NCBI GenBank assembly: GCA_011046395.1
Contig: DSAQ01000031.1
Coordinates: 1-42,802 of the forward strand
Direction of reading: 5' to 3'
Origin: Pseudomonadota bacterium
GTDB lineage: Bacteria > Desulfobacterota > QYQD01
Length of the DNA: 42,802 bases
In this document: positions 3,996 through 30,395 of the stretch, piece after piece
How positions within the stretch are numbered: the first letter of the stretch is position 1
Layout: each line of letters begins with the position of its first letter
The notes under the pieces: model-generated
The model's input: the letters and a program-made list of their open reading frames with translations, nothing else
Databases searched by the model: none
What the model was told of the DNA's origin: nothing
Program-made: the position numbers and the translations under genes

Positions 3996-4775
3996 ATGCA
4001 GCCGGAACACATAAAGCATATCAGCGAAAAATTTGGACGGGATATAACTCCGCTTGGACCACAGGACAGATTTCCATTCGACCACTCAGCGTGCCTGGAC
4101 TGCTCAAGCGCATGCTGTTATAGCACAGACGTGCTTCTTTCCATGCACGACATCCACCGCATGAAGGAGGCGCCGGCCCTGACGCAAACGGGAACTACCA
4201 TTGCAAGGCTTTTCGCGCTCGGTATCCTTAGATGTTATGTGGGACCGGAAAGCAACGCCCCGCTGTGTATCATCGAGACCGGAAAAACGAACGGTCGCTG
4301 CTCGTTTATCGCCGCCGTATGCGATCCGTGCACGAACGAGGTGCAAAGAACACCGGACGGAAAACCGAAAACCCTCTGTGCCCTGGGAGAGCATAAGCCA
4401 CTTCGCTGCAAACTATACCCGCTCGGCAGAGTGACCTCCCTCGGAAAGGCAGACAAAACGCCGGAACAGCAGATGGTGCTGCAAAACATAATGTGCCGGG
4501 CAACAGAGACCGCAAAGACCGTAACCCTGGAAGAATTTTACAAGAGCAACCATATCAGCCAGGAAATACTGCAAGCAAACCTCGAGTGCATGGAAGCGCT
4601 GACGGCATTCCATGGCAAAGCCATAGCCAGAAGCCGGTTCTACTTCTACATGGGCCTGATGTACGACCCTGACTTTATAACAAACGTCCTGGGCATGGAA
4701 GCAGGCTTTTCAATCGCACTGGCGCTTACAAAAAAATTCCTGAGCAAAGAACCATTCGAATCCACGGTGCACTGA
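3996..4775 (+). CDS. YkgJ-family Fe/Zn-binding cysteine-cluster protein
   Basis: 259 residues. CLDCSSACC at 33-41 gives the CxxCxxxCC signature of the YkgJ (zinc/iron-chelating) family; later GRCSFIAAVCDPC and LRCKLYPLG supply the usual remaining ligands. The family is thought to bind metal, possibly Fe-S, but its biochemical role is unsettled. At 259 residues it is longer than minimal YkgJ domains (~100) and has a helical C-terminal extension. GGGAG precedes the ATG at 3996. Its stop overlaps the next start (TGATG), so translation is probably coupled to the helicase gene, and the upstream RNA leader may control both. Confidence 0.88.
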   Translation: MQPEHIKHISEKFGRDITPLGPQDRFPFDHSACLDCSSACCYSTDVLLSMHDIHRMKEAPALTQTGTTIARLFALGILRCYVGPESNAPLCIIETGKTNGRCSFIAAVCDPCTNEVQRTPDGKPKTLCALGEHKPLRCKLYPLGRVTSLGKADKTPEQQMVLQNIMCRATETAKTVTLEEFYKSNHISQEILQANLECMEALTAFHGKAIARSRFYFYMGLMYDPDFITNVLGMEAGFSIALALTKKFLSKEPFESTVH

Positions 4776-6220
4776 TGGATCACCTCGAATACCTTGACAA
4801 CGGCCAGATAGCAGCGGTCAGGGGCGGTGACGGGATCGTCAAAGTCATAGCCGGGCCCGGTTCGGGCAAGACCCGGATAATCACGCACAGGATCGCCTAC
4901 CTGCTTACCGAGAAAAAAGCCGCCCCCGGCGCGGTGCTGGCCATGACCTACACACGCAAGGCAACCCAGACCATGCAGGCCAGGCTCAACAAACTCTCAG
5001 GCGCCGCCGCCAGCGAAGTGGGGGTCAAAACCATCCATTCCCTGTGCCTGAAAATCGCCCGGGAAGAAGGCCTCGTACCTGGCTACAGGGTCCTCTCCGA
5101 CTACGAAGCAAACTCCATCCTTAAGGATATCCTGAAAGAGCAAAAACCGGGTATCGATCTCGAGAACGCCCGGCAGAGCATCCGGGGCATGAAAAACTGC
5201 CTCATCACGGCGGAGGAAGCCCGGGTACTGAATCCCGAAGTGGCCAGGATTTATACCGCCTACGAAAGAAAGAAAAGACAGGCGAACGGCATAGACTATG
5301 AAGACATGCTGCTTACTGTCTTCAACCTGTTCAGCACAAGGCACACGGCCAGAGAAAAATACGCCGAACGCTACCAATACATCCTCATTGACGAGGCCCA
5401 GGACATATCCAAGGCGCAGTTCGAGATTATAAAGCTCCTTATCGCACCGCATTATAACCTCTTTGTGGTATGCGACCCCAACCAGGCCATATACGGCTGG
5501 AGGGGAGCAAACGGCAGCATCGCACGGCTGCAAAACGATTACCCGGAAATGAAGGAGTTCGCGCTGACAACAAACTACCGGCATGGAGAAAACATAATAA
5601 GGGCTTCGAATAACCTTATCCGGCACAACTACGATGCCCTATCCATCCAACCCGTGCCGGCACCGGGCACAGTTCCCGGAGAAGTCCTGGTTATCGAGGC
5701 CAAGACCCCGGAACAGGAAGCATACACGACGGCCAAACAAATCATGCGCCTTAAACGTAAGGGAGCAAGGCTCAAAGACTGCGCCATCCTCGTTCGCGCC
5801 AACCGGCAAATCCCGATCTATGCCAGGGCCTGCGCTGAAGTCGGCATACCATGCGATTGCAGGGCAAACCAGAAGCCAGCCTCAAGCTTCCAGGAAAAAT
5901 CCCTGCTCAAGACCATCATGGACGGCATATACAGGATGTTTAAACCAAGAGAATCCTCTCTATCCTGGGAAAACAGCCCCAGGCCGTCCGCAAGGGACAG
6001 GCTCAATATCCTTACCATGCACAAGGCCAAGGGACTCGAGTTCGACCACGTATTCGTCGGAGGTCTGACGGAGGGAACCTTCCCGGACACCAGGAAAGAC
6101 CCGGATATCGAAGAAGAAAGACGCATCTGCTATGTGGCCATGACCAGGGCCAAAAAAAGCCTTTACCTCGGCACGGCTACGCCAAGCTCAAGATTTGCCT
6201 ACGAAGCCTTTTCAGCCTGA
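4775..6220 (+). CDS. Compact UvrD/PcrA-type SF1 helicase
   Basis: 481 residues, well short of PcrA/UvrD (~720). Motif I GPGSGKT at 27-33, Ia AMTYTRKA near 57, motif II DEAQD at 206-210, motif III DPNQAIYGWRG, motif IV TNYRHGENI, motif V TMHKAKGLEFDHVF and motif VI AMTRAKK are all present. The reduced length comes mainly from the region that forms the 2B subdomain and from the absent C-terminal tail. It should be an active 3'-5' ssDNA translocase for replication or repair. The start overlaps the ykgJ-like stop by one base, so the two are translationally coupled. Confidence 0.93.
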   Translation: MDHLEYLDNGQIAAVRGGDGIVKVIAGPGSGKTRIITHRIAYLLTEKKAAPGAVLAMTYTRKATQTMQARLNKLSGAAASEVGVKTIHSLCLKIAREEGLVPGYRVLSDYEANSILKDILKEQKPGIDLENARQSIRGMKNCLITAEEARVLNPEVARIYTAYERKKRQANGIDYEDMLLTVFNLFSTRHTAREKYAERYQYILIDEAQDISKAQFEIIKLLIAPHYNLFVVCDPNQAIYGWRGANGSIARLQNDYPEMKEFALTTNYRHGENIIRASNNLIRHNYDALSIQPVPAPGTVPGEVLVIEAKTPEQEAYTTAKQIMRLKRKGARLKDCAILVRANRQIPIYARACAEVGIPCDCRANQKPASSFQEKSLLKTIMDGIYRMFKPRESSLSWENSPRPSARDRLNILTMHKAKGLEFDHVFVGGLTEGTFPDTRKDPDIEEERRICYVAMTRAKKSLYLGTATPSSRFAYEAFSA

Positions 6221-8653: not shown

Positions 8654-9265
8654 ATGGCGTTCAGCAACTCTGCTATTAAAACATTGACTAGTAACGATTT
8701 GTGGCAAAGGGTCCCCGGGAACGAACACGTTAAACGGGCCCTGGAGGTAGCCCTGGCCGGTTCGCATTCGGTGATGATTCTTGGTTATCCTGAAACCCAA
8801 AGACCCATGGTGAATCTGGTTCAGGCGTTGTACGAGCGGTCGCCGGAGAAAGTCGCCATCAAGTTGGCTATCGTTTGTCCTTGCGGGTACTTCCAACACC
8901 CGCACAAAAGCTGTAGCTGCACTCCCAGGGAAATAAGGCACCATTACAAGCGACTGAAGCTCCACAGGTATCAAATAATAATTGAATCGAGCATTCCCAG
9001 GTTGACCGACTTCCTGAAACCAGGGGAACCGTTCCCCGATGTCGAGCCGAGAATAATCCGGGCCGCCCAATTCAAGAAAGACAGTACGGAATTATGTGCG
9101 ACTTCCGAGGCCTTATCGCTGATCGAGGCTGCCTGTTCAAAGTTAGCTATCAATCTGGAAAATGCGCTACAGATAGCTGGTACTATAGCGGCTTTAGATC
9201 AAAAAACTATTATCGACCCTATACACTTGGCCGAAGCAATTCAATATAGCCGTATCAAGGTTTAG
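8654..9265 (+). CDS. Truncated ComM/YifB-like protein lacking Walker motifs
   Basis: 203 residues against ~500 for ComM. Residues 15-44 (DLWQRVPGNEHVKRALEVAL...ILG) match the start of the ComM/Mg-chelatase-type AAA domain, but GYPETQRPMV stands where GPPGSGKT belongs, and the Walker B region is deleted. The ComM four-Cys segment CPCGYF...KSCSC is kept (C75, C77, C87, C89), followed by TPREIRHHYKRL and a ComM-like C-terminus ending HLAEAIQYSRI. ComM is a branch-migration helicase in natural transformation; this form should not hydrolyse ATP. It may bind DNA or partners as an accessory or decoy. The frame is intact with AAGGAG before the ATG, arguing against simple decay. Confidence 0.78.
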   Translation: MAFSNSAIKTLTSNDLWQRVPGNEHVKRALEVALAGSHSVMILGYPETQRPMVNLVQALYERSPEKVAIKLAIVCPCGYFQHPHKSCSCTPREIRHHYKRLKLHRYQIIIESSIPRLTDFLKPGEPFPDVEPRIIRAAQFKKDSTELCATSEALSLIEAACSKLAINLENALQIAGTIAALDQKTIIDPIHLAEAIQYSRIKV

Positions 9266-10837: not shown

Positions 10838-11161
10838 ATGTATCCTAGGGAAAAACAGACACTAAAGAAGATCGCCGCCAGACTCAAGAAACACCTGCCT
10901 GACCGAATCGTTTCTGTACATGCTTTCGGCTCAAGAGTAAGAGGAAACCACAATGCCTGGTCCGACTTCGACGTGCTTGTTGTAGTACACAACAAAAATC
11001 CCGAGATTGAAGCAAGGATCATCGAAATATTTGTCGAGGAAGAAACAAAAAGCGATCTGTCTTTCACCCCGGTAATAAAAGACGCCAAGGCGTTTGAACT
11101 TGAAAGAAGGTTCCATACGCCGTTCTTTGACAACATCGTGAGAGAGGGAATAGCCCTATGA
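10838..11161 (+). CDS. mntA: MNT-type nucleotidyltransferase (antitoxin of HEPN/MNT pair)
   Basis: 107 residues. GSRVRGNHNAWSDFD is the GSxxxG...SDxD signature of minimal nucleotidyltransferases, giving the metal-binding Asp pair. In known HEPN/MNT systems this protein silences the HEPN ribonuclease, in characterised cases by adenylylating it. The length is typical. Its stop overlaps the HEPN start (ATGA), normal for this module. The ribosome binding site is weak. The pair is an autonomous stabilisation or defence module. Confidence 0.88.
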   Translation: MYPREKQTLKKIAARLKKHLPDRIVSVHAFGSRVRGNHNAWSDFDVLVVVHNKNPEIEARIIEIFVEEETKSDLSFTPVIKDAKAFELERRFHTPFFDNIVREGIAL

Positions 11162-11622
11162 GCCTGGAAGCCCAAGACAAAAAAGCGCTAAGCGACATTA
11201 GGATGTCCAGGGCGTACGAATTTCTAGACGACAGCAAAGCCAACTATAAAGACAAGAGATACAAAACGTCCGTAAACAGAAGTTATTATGCGGTCCTTAA
11301 CGCGGCAAGAGCAATCCTTATCCTGCAAGGCGCAAACCCCGAAACCCACGAAGGCGCCATAACAATGCTTAACTTGAGATTTGTAAGGCCCGGGTTGCTT
11401 CCGCTTGAAATAATCAAGAAATTCAAGACCCTTCTTTCAAGAAGAACAGATGTGGACTACGGCGACTTCGAGACCATCGACGCGACTGAGGCCAGAGACT
11501 CCCTTCGCCTCGCGGAGGAAGCAATAAAGGCTATTGATGCCGCCCGGCAAAAGATGATAAAAACCACGCTTGTCCAGGAAATAGTAAAAGCAACTTCAAA
11601 GAAAAGCAAAAAACGCCAATAA
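11158..11622 (+). CDS. hepT: HEPN-domain toxin of HEPN/MNT pair
   Basis: 154 residues, all-helical HEPN pattern. KTSVNRSYYAVLNAARAILI is the characteristic second helix, followed by NPETHEGAI, the FVRPGLLPLE loop, and RRTDVDYGDF before the last long helix; the tail is Lys-rich (KKSKKRQ). HEPN proteins of this group are usually RNases. The start overlaps the MNT stop by four bases. Confidence 0.85.
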   Translation: MSLEAQDKKALSDIRMSRAYEFLDDSKANYKDKRYKTSVNRSYYAVLNAARAILILQGANPETHEGAITMLNLRFVRPGLLPLEIIKKFKTLLSRRTDVDYGDFETIDATEARDSLRLAEEAIKAIDAARQKMIKTTLVQEIVKATSKKSKKRQ

Positions 11623-12742: not shown

Positions 12743-13939
12743 ATGTACAAACGGCCTGCTTTTAATGTTCTTTCCAATAGAATCGCCGAGCGAAGACAGT
12801 TCATTCAGGTTCTTGCCGGCCCGCGACAAACCGGAAAAACCACCCTGGCCCGGCAGATTCTGGAAGCGATAGTCATTCCCGGCCATTATGCCTCGGCCGA
12901 TGAACCCATGTTAAAAGACCGGATATGGATCGAACAGCAGTGGGAGGCTGCACGTTTCCGGGCCAGATCCGCAGGTGAAGCAAAAAAGGCCATGTTGGTT
13001 TTAGATGAAATCCAAAAGATCCCCGGCTGGTCAGAAACCGTGAAGCGCTTGTGGGATGAGGACACCGCCGCCGGCGTCAACCTTCACGTGATAGTTCTGG
13101 GTTCCTCGCCGCTGCTTGTCCAGCGCGGACTCACCGAGAGCCTTGCTGGCCGGTTTGAAGTCGTGCATATAACCCATTGGTCGTTCGAAGAGTTGCATCA
13201 GGCATTCGGCTGGGACCTGGATAAGTATCTATTTTATGGCGGCTACCCGGGGGCAGCCGGTTTGATCGACGATCAGGAGCGATGGTCTCGCTATATTATA
13301 GACTCTCTTATCGAAACTACACTGTCCCGTGATATCCTGCTGATGACGCGGGTAGACAAGCCCTCCCTTCTACGCCGCTTGTTTGAACTGGGCTGTAGCT
13401 ATTCCGGTCAGGTTCTTTCCTATCAGAAAATGCTTGGTCAACTTCAGGATGCCGGCAACACCACGACGCTTGCTCATTATCTTGACCTGCTGAGTGGGGC
13501 TGGATTGTTAACGGGGTTGTCGAAATATGCTGGCCAGCGGGTCCGTCAAAGAGCTTCCAGCCCCAAGCTGGTCGTGTTGAATACGGCTCTCATGACTGCG
13601 CAGTGTCAGCTCAGCTTGACCCAAGCGAAGCAAGATACCCAGTTATGGGGGCGTCTAGTGGAGTCGGCTGTTGGTGCCACGCTGGCTAATGCAATCAAAG
13701 GGAAAAACATGGAATTGTATTACTGGGCAAGTCGTAACGTGGAAGTGGACTATGTACTATGTCGGGGCAAGGAGTTGATTGCTATAGAGGTGAAAAGCAC
13801 ACGGGAAAAAACCGGTCTGCCCGGCCTTGAGGCCTTTTCCAGAGAGTTCACCGTCAAAAAAAAGCTATTGGTTGGAGGCACAGGGATCCCACTCAAAGAC
13901 TTCCTGTTGACGCCTCCGGAGGTTTGGTACAAGTCGTAG
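12743..13939 (+). CDS. AAA_14/DUF4143 family ATPase
   Basis: 398 residues, normal length. Walker A GPRQTGKTT at 26-34, Walker B-like AMLVLDEIQKIPGWSE near 84, the Arg-containing GSSPLLVQRGLTESLAGR segment, then the YLFYGGYPGA motif typical of this family. The C-terminal DUF4143 part carries EVDYVL...IAIEVKS, a PD-(D/E)XK-like nuclease arrangement. The cellular role of these common, frequently transferred ATPases is not established. The gene is flanked by tandem palindromes and looks less codon-biased than its neighbours, consistent with transfer. Confidence 0.9.
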   Translation: MYKRPAFNVLSNRIAERRQFIQVLAGPRQTGKTTLARQILEAIVIPGHYASADEPMLKDRIWIEQQWEAARFRARSAGEAKKAMLVLDEIQKIPGWSETVKRLWDEDTAAGVNLHVIVLGSSPLLVQRGLTESLAGRFEVVHITHWSFEELHQAFGWDLDKYLFYGGYPGAAGLIDDQERWSRYIIDSLIETTLSRDILLMTRVDKPSLLRRLFELGCSYSGQVLSYQKMLGQLQDAGNTTTLAHYLDLLSGAGLLTGLSKYAGQRVRQRASSPKLVVLNTALMTAQCQLSLTQAKQDTQLWGRLVESAVGATLANAIKGKNMELYYWASRNVEVDYVLCRGKELIAIEVKSTREKTGLPGLEAFSREFTVKKKLLVGGTGIPLKDFLLTPPEVWYKS

Positions 13940-14059: not shown

Positions 14060-16103
14060 ATGTTCGAAACAATAATCAAGAGAAACGGGACCGTTGTCCC
14101 CTTCGACCCCCAGAAGATCGCTAACGCCATCCTGAAAGCAGGCCAGGCCACAGGCGGGTTCGACGAAGGAACAGCCCGAAGACTTTGCCGGATAGTCGTG
14201 GCCAAGGCCGTAAAAAGCCTCGATCAGGCCAGCGTGGAAGCCATTCAGGACATCGTCGAAGTTACTCTAATGGAAAACGGCTACCACAAGACGGCCAAGG
14301 CGTACATCCTCTACCGGGAGCAGCACGCCAAGATAAGAAAAGTAAACGAACTCCTGGGCCTGAACCTGGTGAACGACTACCTGGGCAAGAGCGACTGGAG
14401 GGTAAAAGAAAACAGCAACATGGACTATTCTCTCCAGGGTCTCAACAACTACCTGGCCGGCCACATCGTCTCCACGTACTGGTTGAACCAGATATACCCG
14501 CCTGAAGTACGGGAGGCGCATACGAGCGGCGACATACATATCCACGACCTCAACTCCCTCAGTCCATACTGCGTGGGATGGGACCTCGCAGACCTCCTGA
14601 CCAAGGGTTTCCGTGGAGTTTCCCAGAAGGTAGAGTCGGGACCGCCAAAACATTTCCGGTCTGTCCTGGGACAAATCTACAATTTCCTATACACGCTCCA
14701 GGGGGAGGCAGCCGGGGCAATGGCCCTGTCCCACTTCGACACCCTTCTGGCTCCGTTCGTCAGGTTTGACAACCTTGCCTACAAGCAAGTCAAACAGGGC
14801 ATCCAGGAGTTCATCTTCAACCTTAACACACCGACCCGGGTAGGGTTTCAAACCCCTTTTTCGAATCTGACCCTGGACCTCCGGCCGCCGGAATTCATGA
14901 GCAAGGAAAAAGTAGTTCACGGAGGCGGGTACCTGGATACGACTTACGGCGAGTTCGCCGAAGAGATGCTCATGATCAACCGGGCCTTTGCCGAAGTCAT
15001 GGCCGAAGGCGATGCCGCCGGTAAGATCTTCACATTTCCCATACCTACATACCAAGTCACCGAAGACTTCCCCTGGGACGACCCCGATTTTCAGGGAATA
15101 TGGGATATCACGGCAAAGTTCGGCCTCCCGTACTTCGCGAATTACCTCAATTCCGACATGAAGCCGGAAGACGCCCGGAGCATGTGCTGCCGGCTGAACC
15201 TGAACCTGAAAGAACTGCAAAAGAGAAACGGCGGCCTTTTCAGTTCAAGCCCGCTCACGGGATCCATCGGCGTGGTTACAATCAATCTGCCCCGCCTGGC
15301 CCTGCTTTCTAGCAACTCCAAAGGCTTTTTAAACCAGCTTTGCGAGAAAATCAGAATAGCCGTCACCTCCCTTGAAACCAAACGCAAGGTGCTCGAACGC
15401 TTCACCGAGGAGGGTCTCTACCCCTACTCAAGGTTCTACCTGACCGAAGTGAAAAAACGATTCGGAAGATACTGGGCCAACCACTTCAGCACCATCGGTA
15501 TCATCGGGATGCACGAGGCCCTCAGGTACCTGGGACTGGACGGAATCCACACGGACAAAGGCAAAGACTTTGCCCTGGAAACGCTGAGGTTCATCAAAGG
15601 AGAAATCGCTGAATACCAGGAAGAGACCGGAAACCTTTACAACCTCGAGGCAACGCCCGCCGAGGGAGCAAGCTACAGGCTGGCACAAAGAGACCGGAAG
15701 CTGTTCAACACCGAGGCAGACATATACACCAACTCGACCAATCTTCCCGTGGACTTTACCGATGATCTGGCCTTCAGCCTTGACCACCAGGAGCCCTTGC
15801 AAAAAGAGTACACCGGGGGGCACGGTATTCCACGTTTATTTAGGGGAGAAGCTTCAGGCGGAGCATGCAAAGACCCTCGTCAAAAAGGTGATCACTACGT
15901 ACAGCCTGCCCTATGTCACCCTTACGCCCACCTTCAGCATCTGCCCCAGGGACGGATATCTACCCGGTGAAGAGCCTGTTTGCCCGAAGTGCGGAGGCGA
16001 AGCCGACGTCTACTCCCGCATTGTAGGATACTACCGTCCGGTAAACCAGTGGAACGAAGGGAAACAGCAGGAATTTGCCAGAAGAAAAGCCTATGCCGCC
16101 TGA
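14060..16103 (+). pseudogene. nrdD: Anaerobic ribonucleotide reductase NrdD, interrupted by a +1 frameshift
   Basis: Class III RNR reduces NTPs to dNTPs using a glycyl radical. The N-terminal ATP cone (TIIKRNGTVVPFDPQKIANAI), SPYCVGWDL, SMCCRLNLN and GSIGVVTINLPR match NrdD. The frame breaks at the six-G run 15815-15820: reading one base later gives GGTVFHVYLGEKL, then the Cys cluster (ICPRDG, VCPKCGG) and the radical loop SRIVGYYRP (Gly codon 16026-16028). Corrected length is ~681 residues, normal. A single extra G would explain it, and everything on both sides is well conserved, so a sequencing error or very recent mutation is likely. AAAGGAACCC precedes the ATG. Confidence 0.9.
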
Positions 16104-17022
16104 AAGTCCGAACATCCCGATCGCCGGAATGCATCCGGTAACGGCCATTAACTACCCAGGCAAAATCGCCGCCTGCATTTTTACGCAGGGATGCAACCTC
16201 CGCTGCCCGTACTGTCATAACCAGGAGCTACTCCCGATAAAACCGGGAAAGGTTTCGTTGGAAGAAACCATGGCCTTCCTTCGCCGCAGCAAAAAACTCA
16301 TTGAAGGGGTGGTAATCACCGGGGGAGAGCCGACGATTCACCCGGACCTGCCTCAAGTTATAGCCGGGATAAAAAAAGAAGGGTTAATGGTCAAGCTTGA
16401 TACCAACGGAACCAACCCGGACATGCTTCAGTGTCTTATTGAGGAAAAACTTATTGATGCGGTAAGTATGGATATTAAAACGACCCCGGATAAGTACGGG
16501 ATGCTTGGAGTGGATATGGCCACGATTCTACGTAGTATATCCCTGATCGGGCACTCGGGAGTTGAGTACGAGTTCCGTACAACGGTTGACGGTCAGATAT
16601 GTACGGACGAAGATGTGGCTGAGATCGAGAAACTCACATACCAAAGGCCAGAAAATACAGGGTTCAGAAAGCCATTTGAAAACAAAAACATATTTGCCAT
16701 CGTTGGCATATTGGCTTCGTTGGTCTGGTTCCTGGTTTCCAAGCGTAAATTATACTGGCAAACATATTGGGAACAACGACTGTTTGATTTCGAAAGAGAA
16801 CACCTGCCCGGCCTTGATTTCTTCGGCGCCAGCCAGCAGCGGATTCAAAACGATGTTGAGAAAAACTTGATCCTCCATAAGGAGATGGGGTGGTTACAAG
16901 CGATCGTGTACAAGCTGGTTCTTAAAAGGCCTAGCATCAACAACTCAATGCTCTGTGTTCCAGCCCTTTTTGTGCTGGGCTGGGTTGGACTCCTTTTCAG
17001 TAGTGTAAAACCTTTGATGTGA
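16093..17022 (+). CDS. nrdG: Chimeric NrdG: radical-SAM activase fused to an unrelated membrane segment
   Basis: 309 residues from ATG 16093 (a TTG at 16075 is also possible), overlapping the NrdD stop. The first ~185 residues are a good NrdG: CNLRCPYC cluster for the Fe-S, TGGEPTIHPD, KLDTNGTNPD, SMDIKTTPDKYG and EYEFRTTVDG. After about 16640 NrdG similarity stops and the protein continues with FENKNIFAIVGILASLVWF (TM1), an amphipathic WQTYWEQRLFDFEREHLPG region, and a second TM helix (CVPALFVLGWVGLLFSS). The latter half resembles small two-helix membrane proteins. It looks like a recombination junction. Whether the truncated activase still generates the glycyl radical is unknown. Confidence 0.82.
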   Translation: MPPESPNIPIAGMHPVTAINYPGKIAACIFTQGCNLRCPYCHNQELLPIKPGKVSLEETMAFLRRSKKLIEGVVITGGEPTIHPDLPQVIAGIKKEGLMVKLDTNGTNPDMLQCLIEEKLIDAVSMDIKTTPDKYGMLGVDMATILRSISLIGHSGVEYEFRTTVDGQICTDEDVAEIEKLTYQRPENTGFRKPFENKNIFAIVGILASLVWFLVSKRKLYWQTYWEQRLFDFEREHLPGLDFFGASQQRIQNDVEKNLILHKEMGWLQAIVYKLVLKRPSINNSMLCVPALFVLGWVGLLFSSVKPLM

Positions 17023-21735: not shown

Positions 21736-22371
21736 ATGCCCGACAGCCAAAAAGTCGAGCTGTTTCCCGTCCGGCTTCTGGGATACCGGGTGGCAGCCTC
21801 AAACATCTCCCTTCACATAAAAAGCCCTACTACGAGACCGGAAGCCGTAGAACTTCTCAACCAGATACAGCACGTCGAGAACCGCAGCAAGGGCCTCAAG
21901 GCCCATGTCGTGACAAAGATCGAAGACGCCGACACCAACACCATGACCAGGTTCGCGGCCGAACTGGCCTCCCTCTCATCCAAGAGAAGCAATGTCAATC
22001 TCCTGCTCCATATCCCAAAAAGCAGGCATGTAGCCAAGGTCCTTTTCGACCTTGTCGGAGGAAAAGACCTTTTTCTCACTATATTCCCGACTTGGAAAAC
22101 AGACAACCCGGACAACCATGACAGGGAGAAAAACGTCCAGGAAGTCGATAACATGCTGACCATACTCAGTGACCTCACGCATAGATATAAAGAAGAAATA
22201 CTCTACGAACTCACCACGTTCAAAAACGAAGCAGGCGCTACCGTGGAAGGAAAACGAACCCTCAGCGAAGTCTCCGACCGGCAGCTCGAAGTGGTCCTCG
22301 CCAAACTGAGAAAATCCCTTTCTGCAGTTGAAACCAATCAAATTCTCGAAAAGACGGAGGACATTCTATGA
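21736..22371 (+). CDS. Hypothetical protein upstream of the Whirly SSB
   Basis: 211 residues. The first half is mixed alpha/beta (VELFPVRLLGYRVAASNISLHI), the second half helical and charged. No catalytic motif or family recognised. It follows the protease gene by three bases, with AAAAGGAGG upstream, and its last four bases overlap the Whirly SSB start (ATGA), so the two are translationally coupled and may work together. Confidence 0.7.
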   Translation: MPDSQKVELFPVRLLGYRVAASNISLHIKSPTTRPEAVELLNQIQHVENRSKGLKAHVVTKIEDADTNTMTRFAAELASLSSKRSNVNLLLHIPKSRHVAKVLFDLVGGKDLFLTIFPTWKTDNPDNHDREKNVQEVDNMLTILSDLTHRYKEEILYELTTFKNEAGATVEGKRTLSEVSDRQLEVVLAKLRKSLSAVETNQILEKTEDIL

Positions 22372-22916
22372 ACCCGCTAAAGCTTTATCGCTCCTCGGCA
22401 GGAGTGAGACTCTCTCCGAACGCGGAGAGAAAGGTCGTCTTCGTGGAAGGCGCGCCGGTAGTGCCCGGCATGGAAAAGACCATGCCCGAAAAGGGGCAGA
22501 ACAAGTACCAATGGAAGGAAGGAAAAATCAGCATAGCCCTGAAACCGGAAGAGCTGATGAACCTGGCCGCCAAATGCGAAGAAATACGCCTGGGAAACGG
22601 GGAGGTTAAAGAACTGAGCATGGTCCACGATCCCAGCAAGGGCGGCTTCCAGGGGGATAAAAAAGCCCTGACGCTACGACGGACAAACGGGTCAACCTTT
22701 CTGACGGTTGGAGAGTTCAAAGACAAAAACAACGTCAAAAAGGTAAACGTACCATTGTCACGGGAGGATCTCTATCGCCTGGAAAAATTCGCAGCCCAGA
22801 CGGCGATGGTGCTTGACGGCTGGGCTATCGGCGGAAGCCCAACGACAAACAGCAACCGCCCCGGCGATTCCGGCGATAGTACGAACGGCACCCCCGGAGA
22901 ACGCTTTCCGTTCTAA
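22368..22916 (+). CDS. Whirly-domain ssDNA-binding protein with SSB-like C-terminal tip
   Basis: 182 residues. Residues ~44-152 follow the plant Whirly pattern closely: KYQW (46-49, Whirly KYDW), KISIALKPEEL (Whirly FALSxxE), a VHDPSKGG segment (86-93, Whirly FFHDPS), KALTLRRTNGSTFLTV (Whirly KSLSIKP...FISLSV), VNVPLSREDLYRL (Whirly VPVTTAEF) and a closing DGW (Whirly MGWD). The two halves repeat beta-strands then helix. A ~30-residue disordered Gly/Ser/Asn/Pro tail ends GERFPF, like the conserved PF tip of bacterial SSB that recruits partners. It probably coats ssDNA in this element's replication. Its start overlaps the upstream stop. Confidence 0.82.
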   Translation: MNPLKLYRSSAGVRLSPNAERKVVFVEGAPVVPGMEKTMPEKGQNKYQWKEGKISIALKPEELMNLAAKCEEIRLGNGEVKELSMVHDPSKGGFQGDKKALTLRRTNGSTFLTVGEFKDKNNVKKVNVPLSREDLYRLEKFAAQTAMVLDGWAIGGSPTTNSNRPGDSGDSTNGTPGERFPF

Positions 22917-22973: not shown

Positions 22974-23333
22974 ATGCTTTACACAAAACCAATGTTGACC
23001 ATCCTAGCATTGGGTATCCTGTTTGCCATACTCGGCTGCGGGGTAAAAACCATCAAGCATGGAACGGAAATCACCCAAGAACAGATGGCAAGAATCAAAG
23101 ACGGGGCAACCACGAAGGACGATGTAATCCTCATGTTCGGGGCGCCGACCAAGACTCTGAACAATGAAAAGACGTACGTCTACAGCTGGGTGCGCGGCAC
23201 CAAAGCTCAAGTTCTCGGGCTCGGAACCGGCACCGCCTACGGACATGCCCTGGTTATCCTTTTCGACGCTAATGATGTGGTAAAAGCCCACAAGGTTATA
23301 CGGGACGCCGTAGACCAGAGAATTTACGACTGA
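22974..23333 (+). CDS. SmpA/BamE-like lipoprotein
   Basis: 119 residues. The signal peptide and lipobox LFAILGC put the lipidated Cys at residue 22. The mature part carries the SmpA/OmlA (BamE) fold signature: EQMARIKDGATTKDDVILMFGAPT, then KTYVYSW. In Gram-negatives BamE serves outer-membrane assembly; in Firmicutes and on mobile elements the domain's role is unknown. GGGAGGGAAAG precedes the ATG. It is an envelope protein among replication genes, like the site-2 protease upstream. Confidence 0.82.
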   Translation: MLYTKPMLTILALGILFAILGCGVKTIKHGTEITQEQMARIKDGATTKDDVILMFGAPTKTLNNEKTYVYSWVRGTKAQVLGLGTGTAYGHALVILFDANDVVKAHKVIRDAVDQRIYD

Positions 23334-23360
23334 TACAAAGGTATACTCAGTAATACCCAA

Positions 23361-24149
23361 ATGTTCACGTTCACCATCAACAATGTATATACCTCAGTCC
23401 TTTTCTCCCAGGGATGGGAACATAACATTATTCTGAACGCGCTGACATTTGAAAGGCCAGCCTCAACATTCGGAACACGTCCAGGCACATGGCACGGAAG
23501 CCATTGCTTTCTTAAGAGAAATCCCAAAGGCCGTTATTTCTTTCCGACCGGCCTCCTGGCCCTGGTGGTAGAAAAACTTCCCACCGGGCTGGAAACGAAG
23601 TTCACAGACAACCGTAAGAGACCTGCCACTGTGCGAAAAATTAACCCCTCGAAGCAGCCGTCCACGGATCCACAAAAAGGCCGCATCGAGGCAGCCATCG
23701 CCAGGGAACGGGGCATTATCCAGGTCCTGCCCGGGAAAGAAAGGCTCGAGGTCGCAGCGGGCATCGTAAAAACGCTGGGTATTCCCAAAACGCTCTATAT
23801 TGCCAAAAATGTCGCCCTTCTCCGTCAGGCGGCCACGTTCTTTAAGGACGAGTTAGATCTATGCCCGGGCATAATCGCTGACGGCGAGCAACAACCGGGC
23901 CGCCTGACCGTCGCATCCATTCTGGCTCTTGTCAAGCGAAGGGATGAGCCGGGTATTAAGGCCTTTCTGGACTCGGTCCATGTCCTTTTTATTGACTGCC
24001 AAAACAGGCCGGAAACATGGTATAGGGTGGGCCTGAGTTGCCCGGCTTACTATCGCTTTGCGTTCACCGGCATAGAATCAAATCCCGGCACCGCGTCCGA
24101 CGTTCGTCTCACCGCCATAACGGGCAAACCAATATACCCCGTTCAATAG
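23361..24149 (+). CDS. UvsW-like SF2 helicase half with destroyed ATPase motifs
   Basis: 262 residues, about half of UvsW-type helicases. The N-terminal DNA-binding piece ends in the family-typical RYFFPTGLL (59-66). Residues 117-238 follow helicase domain 1 almost throughout (RGIIQV, EVAAGIVKTLG, LLRQAATFF, RLTVASILALVKR, VHVLFID, WYRVGLSCPAYYRFAFTG). However, motif I reads VLPGKERL in place of TGGGKT, motif II reads DCQNR in place of DEAHH, and GTP is GIE. Domain 2 is absent. It cannot be a normal helicase but remains an open frame. It could be a DNA-binding accessory or inhibitor, or an early relic. Confidence 0.75.
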   Translation: MFTFTINNVYTSVLFSQGWEHNIILNALTFERPASTFGTRPGTWHGSHCFLKRNPKGRYFFPTGLLALVVEKLPTGLETKFTDNRKRPATVRKINPSKQPSTDPQKGRIEAAIARERGIIQVLPGKERLEVAAGIVKTLGIPKTLYIAKNVALLRQAATFFKDELDLCPGIIADGEQQPGRLTVASILALVKRRDEPGIKAFLDSVHVLFIDCQNRPETWYRVGLSCPAYYRFAFTGIESNPGTASDVRLTAITGKPIYPVQ

Positions 24150-24154
24150 AACCC

Positions 24155-24176
24155 GAACGCTGTCGATAGCGTTTTT
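24155..24176 (+). terminator. Rho-independent terminator after the UvsW-like gene
   Basis: AACGCT 24156-24161 pairs with AGCGTT 24168-24173 around a six-base loop, followed by TTT. It lies seven bases after the stop codon. Confidence 0.6.
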
Positions 24177-24232
24177 GGTGTCAATAACTGCAATCTTGTC
24201 ACCATGAGTGCTGTTGCAAGGATTTACATTAT

Positions 24233-25153
24233 TTGCTACAAGATGTCACGATTCTATATGAAGTAACACGTTCACAGTATATGGACGCCGAAGAACTCAG
24301 CAAACTGAAACTGCATCCCTGTTTCGAGTATCTGGAAAAGAAGAGCAGGGATGGATTCCCGCCGATTCCCGGGCTCAGGGAAAGAATAAAACCGGGCCCC
24401 TGTCCCGTGACAGTGGCTACGGATAACGTTGTAGTCGCCGGCGTCGGCCTCTTCAATCTTACAAGACGGAGAAACCAAAAGAGAGTTCCCGTAAGAAGGG
24501 TTTCTTTCAGTTCAGAAGCCCCCGATGCCCTCATCGTATGCCTGCGGGAGATAGCCGCAAACGCCCCGCTCTTGGTCAAAGAGGCAGAACGCATAATCCA
24601 TAACTACAAAAAGATAGGAGCGGAGACCAGAGAAGCTCCTGAGCCCCTGACCGTCCAAGGACTTGTCGACGAACTCTTCGAGCTTTACCGGACAGGCAAT
24701 CCAAACGGGAAAATACCTCACTTCCAGGCCCTGGAATTGAGCCGAAACATCCCATACGAAATCCAGGAAAGAATCATAGAGGACGCCAGGGCAACTCCCT
24801 TGAAGGCCCTGGATTACGCAAGGCTGGTGAAAAAGAAAGAACAACAGTCCGAAAAAGACATGGATAGAAATATACTGGTAGAAAATGTCCTCAAAGATCC
24901 CGCAACAAGAAAGCTCCTTTTTGACAAACTGGCCTCGATAACCAGTGACCCGCTGGAGTCCCTCGAACTGAGAGAACTCCTGTCCAATGTGTGGAACCAT
25001 CATACTGAGAGAGAGAAAGGAGAAATTGATAGTGAAAAAGCTGGCGAACCTTCCATTCGGTCCCGAACGCACCACCCTGATCCTGAACCAGGCAAACAAA
25101 TACCTGCCCGCCACAGTCGACGAAATCAAACAGCACCTCAACGGCCAAGGTAA
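24233..25153 (+). CDS. Degenerate ParB-like protein
   Basis: 306 residues if begun at TTG 24233 (AAGGA upstream); ATG 24281 is an alternative. LSKLKLHPCFEYLEKK, then PVTVATDNVVVAGVGLFNLTRRRNQKRVPV resembles the ParB N-domain (Pv.V..d..vvaGe.R..Aar..g...vPV), but the GxxR nucleotide-binding motif is lost (AGVGLFNL). Helical segments follow (IPYEIQERIIEDARATPLKAL). The last ~40 residues overlap the next gene in another frame and look like an out-of-frame read. One base missing in the GA repeat 25006-25015 would instead give a stop at 25027, just before the next start. Confidence 0.65.
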   Translation: MLQDVTILYEVTRSQYMDAEELSKLKLHPCFEYLEKKSRDGFPPIPGLRERIKPGPCPVTVATDNVVVAGVGLFNLTRRRNQKRVPVRRVSFSSEAPDALIVCLREIAANAPLLVKEAERIIHNYKKIGAETREAPEPLTVQGLVDELFELYRTGNPNGKIPHFQALELSRNIPYEIQERIIEDARATPLKALDYARLVKKKEQQSEKDMDRNILVENVLKDPATRKLLFDKLASITSDPLESLELRELLSNVWNHHTEREKGEIDSEKAGEPSIRSRTHHPDPEPGKQIPARHSRRNQTAPQRPR

Positions 25154-27495: not shown

Positions 27496-27891
27496 ATGAT
27501 GCGCAAAATTTCCGAGGAAACCAAAAACATGGTGGAGTCCCTGGCGAAGTTGAATTTGACCTCACGCGACATCGCCTTTTTTACGGGGATATCCGAACGA
27601 ACCATAAAGAGACATTATAAGAGGAAAAATACGGGAGACCTTAAGACCAAGAGCATCCGACTGAACGACCACCAGAAGGCTCTGATAGTTGGTTTGCACC
27701 ATGCAGGCAAGGATTTCCTGGCAATCAGCCTGGCGACCAAGCTGTCTCCCAAGGGGGTCTTGAACTTTCTTAAGAATATGTTCGAAGAGGGGTGGACGGT
27801 AAAACGCTGCCCGGTCTGTGGCCGATATACTCCAATGAAACAAAACCGGCTCAGTATATGCCAGGAGTGTAAGGGACGATCAAATCCTTAA
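27496..27891 (+). CDS. HTH protein with C-terminal zinc ribbon
   Basis: 131 residues. LTSRDIAFFTGISERTIKRHYKRK (~23-46) is a helix-turn-helix; a middle helical region (LVVGLHHAGKDFLAISLATKL-like) follows, and the end carries CPVCGRY...ICQECKG, a four-Cys zinc ribbon. A likely DNA-binding regulator. It lies immediately before the 40-bp inverted-repeat array, which is a natural candidate target. GGAGG precedes the ATG. Confidence 0.72.
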   Translation: MMRKISEETKNMVESLAKLNLTSRDIAFFTGISERTIKRHYKRKNTGDLKTKSIRLNDHQKALIVGLHHAGKDFLAISLATKLSPKGVLNFLKNMFEEGWTVKRCPVCGRYTPMKQNRLSICQECKGRSNP

Positions 27892-28035: not shown

Positions 28036-29163
28036 ATGATGACAAACGCAGTAGTAATCAACAACCGGGAAGTGCAGATGATTATGTACAAAAATCAACC
28101 AGTTGTGACCCTTGAGATGGTGGATAAGTTACATGAAAGACCGGAGGGGACGGCAAGAAGAAACTTCAATGAAAATAGATCGCGTTTCATACAAGCAGAA
28201 GATTATTTCAACTTGCCGTATCGGGAATGGCAATCTATGGTCGTACGAAATTCGTACGACGGTCACGATAAGCGTGGACACTATGGCAAACGGGTCTTCC
28301 TCGCCGAGTCCGGCTACCTGATGCTCGTCAAATCCTTCAACGACGACCTGGCCTGGAAGGTCCAGAGAGAGCTGGTCAACCGCTATTTCCGGTCTAAAGT
28401 AATAGGCAATATCCAGGAACACCTCCAAGAATACGTCGATGTCTGCGTAAAAGCCTCCGTCGAGGCCTCGCTCAAAGTCTGCCAGGCCATGTTTGCCGGG
28501 GTCAGCCCGCAAATGCCCGGGGTCTTTTCTCAACCTGAAGGCAAAGACACCAGCCCAAGAAATTCTGTTTCTAACTGCTACGGGCTGAAAGACTTTGAAT
28601 TTCTCCCCGGCATAGACAGCTACAAACACCCGGCCGCCGACAGCATAGTCCTTCACACGAGTCTTCCCATCGGCGTCTTCGTGGGAAAGAGATTCTTTGT
28701 CCCTGAGAAAGTAGAATACACGCCGTCAACCCTCACCAAAATTCTCAAAGCGTTGATACGCACCAACGACCCCTCTCTCGCCGACTTCGTTTTCAACCGG
28801 CTCCATATCTATAAAGAGGAAGAAGACTTCCATACCTGGGCGCTCACGTATTTGTTGTCAACGCATATATATGACTCAGTGCCCAGGATGCCCGGTCTTC
28901 GTGAGTTTGCCGACGCATACGCGCGGCTTGAAAACAAAAGCCAGCCGCCGGCCAGAAAAGCCAAGGAAGTGCCCCTGGAACAGATCCTTCCGCCAAGGCT
29001 TGTGGCTACGCAAATGCTGTTTCCGGCCGAGGATCACCCGGAAATCGCCCGGTGTCTCCTCGCCGAAGAAGACCCCAAACAAGCAGCGGTAAATTTCCTG
29101 GCAAAGACCGGAACAGACCCAAAAGACTTGTATATCTGGATTGCAGGTAATTTCGCAGCATGA
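28036..29163 (+). CDS. Phage Rha/ORF6N-domain regulator
   Basis: 375 residues. Residues ~17-120 are an ORF6N/Rha-type domain: VVTLEMVDKLHERPEGTARRNF, FIQAEDYFNLPY, LAESGYLMLVKSFNDDLAWKVQRELVNRYF. Such domains are seen in phage regulators and are probably DNA-binding. The remaining ~240 residues are helical, with no family recognised. AAAAGGAG precedes the ATG, and the inverted-repeat array is 60 bases upstream, consistent with autoregulation (inference). Its stop overlaps the dnaB start (ATGA). Confidence 0.82.
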   Translation: MMTNAVVINNREVQMIMYKNQPVVTLEMVDKLHERPEGTARRNFNENRSRFIQAEDYFNLPYREWQSMVVRNSYDGHDKRGHYGKRVFLAESGYLMLVKSFNDDLAWKVQRELVNRYFRSKVIGNIQEHLQEYVDVCVKASVEASLKVCQAMFAGVSPQMPGVFSQPEGKDTSPRNSVSNCYGLKDFEFLPGIDSYKHPAADSIVLHTSLPIGVFVGKRFFVPEKVEYTPSTLTKILKALIRTNDPSLADFVFNRLHIYKEEEDFHTWALTYLLSTHIYDSVPRMPGLREFADAYARLENKSQPPARKAKEVPLEQILPPRLVATQMLFPAEDHPEIARCLLAEEDPKQAAVNFLAKTGTDPKDLYIWIAGNFAA

Positions 29164-30395
29164 ACATCAACGAAGTCCAGGCGGAAATACTCGGCCTCAT
29201 CCTGACCAACCCGGACCTGCTCATCCAGGCCCAGGACCAGCTCACCCTTGACAGCTTCGCCGGCGATTACGCGGATGTCTGGAAGGCGATCCTAACCGTA
29301 AGCAAAAGCGGCCGGCCCGTGGACATCCTCACCGTGCATGAACAGCTTAAGGATAAAATTCCATTGAGCCATCTGGCGTCACTGACCGACTATGGGTTCA
29401 GCCCGACGAGGCTGCCGGTCATGGTAGGCTTCCTCAAAGAAAATACATTGAAACGCCGGGTCACCAACATTCTCCACGGGGCGATAAAAGACATCCAGCA
29501 GGATGCAGACATTGAAAAGAGAATAAACGACCTAACCCTTTCCTTGATGAAAGCCACGGCATCACCACAGGCCAGAGACAAGGCTGGCGGGAATGACCTT
29601 ATTGCCCTAGTCGAAAGACATATCGGTCGCGGCTCCCAGCTCGTCGGCCTTCCCACCGGCATTCCGTCCCTGGACAGGGTGACCTCGGGCCTCATCCCCA
29701 GTATGCTCTGGATACTGGGCGGTCCGGAAAGCTCGGGGAAATCCACACTCGCCGCCCAGGTCGAGGTCAAAGCGCTCCTCGATGGGGCCGGAGTCATCCA
29801 TTTCTCGACGGAGGACGCCACTCATCTGGTCACGATGCGCATGGTCGCCAGTCTCACCGGAATAACCATCATGAAAATGCTCCGCGGAAATCTCAGCCCG
29901 GAAGAACGCATGGCAGTGGATGACGCCATGGACACGCTGGCCCATGCCCGGCTGCAGGTATATGATTCGGTGTATGGACTCTCCCATCTGCGTATCAAAG
30001 CGAAGCGTATGGCCATGGAGCAGGGTCTGGATCTCATAGTATTGGATTATCTTCAGAACGTGAGAGGACACGGCACCATTTATGAACGGATGAGCGAGGC
30101 CGCCATATTTCTGCAGGACCTCCCAAAGGAACTCGACTGCACGGTTTTCGTCCTGTCCCAGCTTTCCAACGAAGCCATACGCAGCCAGGACGCCATAGCC
30201 GGATATAAAGGAGCCGGGGAACTGGCCGCGGCCTGCCACGTAGGGCTCAAGATAATCCCCAACAAGGAGCAGAGAGACTGTTTCACGCTGCAAATCCGCA
30301 AGAACAAGTACGGCCCGGTAGGGTCTATCGAGATGGAGTTCACGGACGAGTTTACCAGGGTAGCGGAAACAAAAAACATACCGCCGTTTGTATAG
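29160..30395 (+). CDS. dnaB: DnaB-like replicative helicase
   Basis: 411 residues, slightly shorter than chromosomal DnaB (~450). The N-terminal domain (AEILGLILTNPDLL, VDILTVHEQL) mediates hexamer and primase contacts. The RecA-like domain has Walker A GGPESSGKST (187-196), FSTEDA, Walker B LIVLDYLQNV (D296) and the VLSQLSNEA motif. It should unwind the element's origin with the AEP primase and clamp. Translation is coupled to rha by a four-base overlap. Confidence 0.92.
   Translation: MNINEVQAEILGLILTNPDLLIQAQDQLTLDSFAGDYADVWKAILTVSKSGRPVDILTVHEQLKDKIPLSHLASLTDYGFSPTRLPVMVGFLKENTLKRRVTNILHGAIKDIQQDADIEKRINDLTLSLMKATASPQARDKAGGNDLIALVERHIGRGSQLVGLPTGIPSLDRVTSGLIPSMLWILGGPESSGKSTLAAQVEVKALLDGAGVIHFSTEDATHLVTMRMVASLTGITIMKMLRGNLSPEERMAVDDAMDTLAHARLQVYDSVYGLSHLRIKAKRMAMEQGLDLIVLDYLQNVRGHGTIYERMSEAAIFLQDLPKELDCTVFVLSQLSNEAIRSQDAIAGYKGAGELAAACHVGLKIIPNKEQRDCFTLQIRKNKYGPVGSIEMEFTDEFTRVAETKNIPPFV

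Follow-up and report, generated by a model that had tools for sequence, protein, structure and literature searches.

The gene described in this study encodes a protein (P0001) composed of a UvsW-type N-terminal domain and helicase domain 1, in which the ATPase motifs have been replaced and domain 2 is missing. On balance we take P0001 to be a pseudo-helicase, i.e. a protein that lost its motor parts while its scaffold would have stayed under continuing selection, and that would act as a DNA-binding component of the recombination-replication module of its element. The coordinates of all relevant features (Table 1) refer to the window, i.e. the whole stretch of 42,802 nucleotides that was analysed.

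Table 1. Features of the half-helicase gene and its surroundings in the window
Feature	Position	Strand	Remarks
Upstream neighbour, conserved	22368..22916	+	182 aa; syntenic with G041 L002:899-1498 (28% identity, E 5e-27)
BamE/phrog_3135-like small lipoprotein gene	22974..23333	+	between upstream neighbour and helicase; not at the same place in G041
Half-helicase ORF (P0001)	23361-24149	+	262 aa; ATG to TAG, frame open
UvsW-type N-terminal domain (residues 1-100)	23361..23660	+	alignment with P0002 and with N-domains of phage UvsW; net charge +9, pI 10.5; modelled as UvsW N-domain
RecA-like helicase domain 1 without working ATPase motifs (residues 101-262)	23661..24146	+	
Motif I (Walker A) position	23724..23747	+	VLPGKERL for APAGSGKT; sequence, alignment with P0002
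Motif II (Walker B/DExH) position	23994..24005	+	D-CQN for DECHH, one codon (E) deleted in frame; sequence, alignment
Motif III position	24060..24077	+	AFTGIE for GLSATP; sequence, alignment with P0002
Intergenic remainder at the expected place of domain 2 (about 200 codons)	24150..24232	+	no remnant
Downstream neighbour, conserved	24233..25153	+	start TTG 24233 or ATG 24281; syntenic with G041 L002:2980-3660 (25% identity, E 9e-16)

The nearest relative of P0001, only about 34% identical to it, is P0002, a 458-aa protein from a second genome of this phylum (G041), where its gene belongs to a syntenic, prophage-like element. P0002 has the make-up of an ordinary UvsW-like helicase, with UvsW_N, ResIII and Helicase_C domains and with intact APAGSGKT, DECHH and GLSATP motifs; P0001 aligns with it over residues 1-262 (33-36% identity, E 9.6e-37 to 9e-39). 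The similarity to helicase domain 1 reported in the first-pass annotation is therefore real, and it is also visible in a phmmer search against the PDB, in which P0001 alone matched domain 1 of archaeal XPBII (E 4e-4), while none of the Pfam and PHROG helicase models was reached by P0001 itself. The N-terminal domain, which had escaped that annotation, is present and well conserved. The coding score of the frame, which is open as previously described, is positive, though lower than that of the adjacent genes (0.17 versus 0.27-0.37 bits per codon). The lipoprotein gene upstream is in frame with the helicase ORF, and between them (23334-23360) lie one TGA and nine codons. Downstream of the helicase stop, a hairpin spotted by eye was not called by a terminator scan.

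Over about 40 kb, the window and G041 have a set of genes in common, comprising NrdD, a RepB-primase-like protein, SbcD, SbcC, the upstream neighbour at 22368, the helicase, a ParB-like protein, the gene at 27496 and a DnaB-like helicase. The window additionally encodes an ORF6N antirepressor and an integrase, and the G041 element a protein that weakly matches a terminase-like family (phrog_2666, E 1.3e-5); both are therefore probably integrated phage-like elements. The element was absent from all four congeners searched. Several other genes of the window (all on the + strand) deserve mention. A VWA-domain protein (92-1612) matches a phage family of unknown function (phrog_24053, E 4e-85), a nucleotidyltransferase gene and a HEPN gene (together 10838-11622) adjoin each other in the arrangement typical of MNT/HEPN toxin-antitoxin systems, and an AAA_14/DUF4143 protein (12743-13939) matches the PADLOC candidate defence family PDC-S01 (E 2.7e-176). 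The class III ribonucleotide reductase NrdD (14060-15970 and 15762-16103) leaves its frame near 15790, its C-terminal part lying in another frame, and an NrdG-type radical SAM protein (16075-17022) is fused in frame to an 8xMP membrane protein segment (PF24838), which resembles a deletion fusion. A 203-aa ComM/Mg-chelatase-like ORF (8654-9265) matches only through residues 17-53 and 72-200, the blocks that flank the ATPase core, and carries ILGYPETQRPM at the expected Walker A position, and is thus a second ATPase without its ATPase core in the element. In a further genome (G011, L055 1477-3461) comM is apparently interrupted by a recombinase-like gene, which suggests that comM is an integration site there.

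Read against the intact, full-length P0002, all motif changes claimed in the first-pass annotation are borne out. The GxGK[ST] signature of Walker A is absent (GKERL at the aligned position), although K[ST] occurs in 94 of the 96 other family members and the lysine in all 96; likewise, P0001 has neither a DExH box nor the SAT/SGT of motif III, in whose place TGIE is seen. The Q-motif has also changed (LRPYQ to TDP-Q), as has motif Ia (LVHQSDLMYQ to IAKNVALLRQ), in which two conserved residues, L and Q, are retained. Every gap in the alignment comprises whole codons, and some of the motif changes arose through single-codon in-frame gaps. Local compensating frameshifts were rejected as the cause of the loss of motif I: the alternative frames, read by eye, did not restore GxGK.

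The absence of domain 2, and with it of motifs IV-VI, was confirmed as well. The ORF stops after domain 1, the next conserved gene begins 84-131 bp past the stop, and no remnant was detected anywhere in the window, where the best match to domain 2 of P0002 was at chance level (23.5 bits); relocation of the domain within the window was ruled out on the same grounds. When domain 2 of P0002 was searched for in the genome of the window, it matched only other, longer helicase-like frames. By the established mechanism of SF2 helicases, a working motor requires Walker A, the DExH glutamate and domain 2. Because all three are missing, P0001 is predicted to be unable to bind or hydrolyse ATP, or to translocate, and so could not work as a motor.

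Is this loss selective? No relatives were retrieved when viral_contigs and genome_contigs were scanned directly for peptide patterns of P0001 and P0002; profile scans (A2/A3) yielded 101 homologues. These viral-contig helicases are each at least 333 aa long and contain both domains. In an alignment of domain 1 from 97 members including P0001, on which our conclusion about selectivity is based, P0001 retains 9/26 conserved residues in motif columns, the lowest value of all 97 (the next lowest being 13/25); in non-motif columns it retains 24/30 and ranks 73rd from the bottom, above the median. It has thus lost 65% of the motif columns versus 20% of the conserved non-motif columns (Fisher P=0.0009; P=0.025 with the non-motif columns restricted to domain 1), a contrast that would not be expected from uniform decay. 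The GxGK lysine of Walker A and [DE]E are present in 96/96 other members. The view put forward in the first-pass annotation, that catalysis was lost selectively while its surroundings were kept, is supported by these values and by the open frame, unexpected under neutral decay.

A first retention test, performed against XPB-like bacterial helicases, revealed no difference between motif and non-motif positions, because this set represents a different subfamily and because the alignment of long sequences misplaced the C-terminal end of P0001. When this set was realigned over domain 1 only, 7/27 motif versus 21/43 non-motif residues were retained (P=0.08); the significance differs between the sets because in our analysis the proper subfamily was chosen and the sequences were cut to domain 1. 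Outside the motifs, P0001 has lost 19 family residues versus 6 in P0002 (P=0.015), and therefore its scaffold is somewhat relaxed. A second motif-less form, the search for which had been proposed earlier, was found nowhere in the material searched: all collected homologues are full-length proteins with motifs, and P0001 is a singleton. Apparent domain-1-only matches in two genomes (G118 and G200) were discarded, since they are helicases severed by contig ends.

The main rival to the pseudo-helicase is a decaying pseudogene: the element would be the remnant of a defective prophage, domain 2 would have been deleted and the ATPase would be dead, with a frame that stays open by chance or because the decay began only recently. 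We consider this a serious explanation, albeit one with less than an even chance. It is consistent with the singleton status of P0001, with the lack of a recognisable Shine-Dalgarno sequence before 23361 (whereas most genes of the element have one), with the damaged appearance of other genes of the element (the frame loss in NrdD, the NrdG fusion and the ComM-like ORF) and with the lack of a match, in the genome of the window, to two proteins predicted for the head module of the G041 element, which is a weak negative. Further points that weigh against the pseudo-helicase are the lower coding score, the absence of the element from the four congeners, the somewhat relaxed scaffold, the weaker contrast within domain 1 and the bias of the fold model described below. 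Decay, however, strikes all positions alike and should be accompanied by stops or frameshifts; P0001 contains neither, and its losses centre on the motifs. Recent decay, in turn, is not expected to replace about 20/29 motif positions without generating stops elsewhere.

Unconstrained substitution was simulated, with 69% of codons replaced, which equals the loss at family-typical motif residues (20/29). Such drift produced a mean of 7.5-8.6 stops and left 0/150 frames open; even with 39% of codons replaced, at most about 1% of frames stayed open. The divergence of the helicase from its G041 counterpart (amino acids 0.34; codon positions 0.50/0.58/0.29) resembles that of sbcC (0.37; 0.50/0.59/0.32) and dnaB (0.33; 0.45/0.60/0.31), so that the P0001/P0002 pair is as diverged as these and other pairs, with a similar codon-position pattern. 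These results give no hint that the helicase ORF was free of constraint for long. The first-pass annotation had staked its reading against a family of uniformly active homologues combined with neutral evolution of this copy; the former is what we found, the latter is not.

It is highly improbable that the ORF is an assembly or sequencing artefact. The genome is admittedly fragmented (261 contigs, 4% contamination), but the ORF is flanked by two conserved neighbours in the middle of its contig, and changes spread across all motifs without frameshifts are unlike random errors.

As suggested in the first-pass annotation, the fold was also modelled. The AlphaFold2 model of P0001 (pLDDT 88) most closely matches the N-terminal half of T4 UvsW (1rif, residues 1-282; Z 23.3, 2.9 A over 243 residues), followed by full UvsW (2oca). 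The UvsW N-domain and RecA-like fold is thus predicted to be kept, in a model built with an alignment of viral, active homologues that biases it towards their fold. The 1rif fragment was crystallised, which shows that the N-domain and domain 1 form a stable, foldable unit. The N-domain has remained strongly basic (+9 versus +11 in P0002), while the charge of domain 1 is +4 (+12 in P0002). In T4 UvsW, substrate recognition has been attributed to the electropositive N-terminal domain (PMC3016280). Taken together with the selective loss and the missing motor parts, this leads us to favour a DNA-binding pseudo-helicase and suggests that P0001 may be kept as a DNA-binding protein rather than as a motor; it is the basic N-domain that points to DNA binding without ATPase activity.

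We propose that a phage-type UvsW-like branch-migration helicase, residing in an integrated phage-like element, would have lost domain 2 and all its ATPase motifs, while selection would have retained the scaffold of domain 1 together with the electropositive N-domain. If expressed, P0001 may bind branched or single-stranded DNA via its N-domain, and its role in the SbcCD/DnaB/ParB-like module might be that of a passive binder or of a loader. Alternatively, it might compete with active helicases, as the "decoy" imagined originally. The further-reaching proposal, that a member of the UvsW/XPB lineage (N-domain and domain 1 only) has become a DNA-binding protein that has no motor, is under selection and perhaps antagonises or guides active branch-migration helicases, has a nearly even chance of being correct. 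Repurposing, as first proposed, is the likelier reading of the selective loss and the open frame, though it is not proven.

A subtype of the pseudo-helicase explanation would make P0001 a subunit that gives DNA specificity to a separate motor, as RecC and AddB do for RecB and AddA. Intact ATPases with visible motifs do exist in the same element (a UvrD-like protein, 4775-6220, and the DnaB-like helicase, 29160-30395), a host helicase being a further candidate partner, and there is a precedent in AddB and RecC, whose inactivated helicase domains recognise DNA (PMC4824097). Neither gene adjacency nor co-occurrence in the single known case supports such a partnership, and we regard it as unlikely.

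If expressed, P0001 would be a natural protein in which the DNA-recognising half of a fork-remodelling helicase stands apart from the motor, and substrate recognition by the UvsW-type N-domain could therefore be tested without an engineered mutant. If the pseudo-helicase explanation is true, the UvsW/XPB branch of SF2 would join the helicases that have been converted to DNA-binding scaffolds. In our partial coverage of the literature, no paper on UvsW-type pseudoenzymes in phages was found.

By descent, P0001 belongs to the UvsW/XPB lineage, as evidenced by sequence homology of both its N-domain and domain 1. It shares with UvsW of phage T4 and the UvsW-like phage SF2 helicases (PF21241 N-domain, phrog_16; 1rif, 2oca) the order of N-domain and RecA-like domain 1 and the predicted fold, but lacks Walker A, DExH, motif III and domain 2, and is considerably shorter (262 aa versus about 460-500). 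Archaeal XPB/XPBII, whose domain 1 is homologous to that of P0001, differ in being active two-domain ATPases with another N-terminal region. In some phages, UvsW-like matches are likewise confined to part of the helicase (e.g. residues 200-449 in Enterococcus phage records); these partial ORFs break before motif II, in contrast to P0001, which breaks between domains 1 and 2. RecC and AddB likewise use a helicase fold without motifs for DNA binding (PMC4824097), yet they belong to SF1 rather than SF2, are parts of large nuclease complexes and are not close homologues, so that their likeness to P0001, whose DNA binding is predicted from its sequence, is one of mode of action only.
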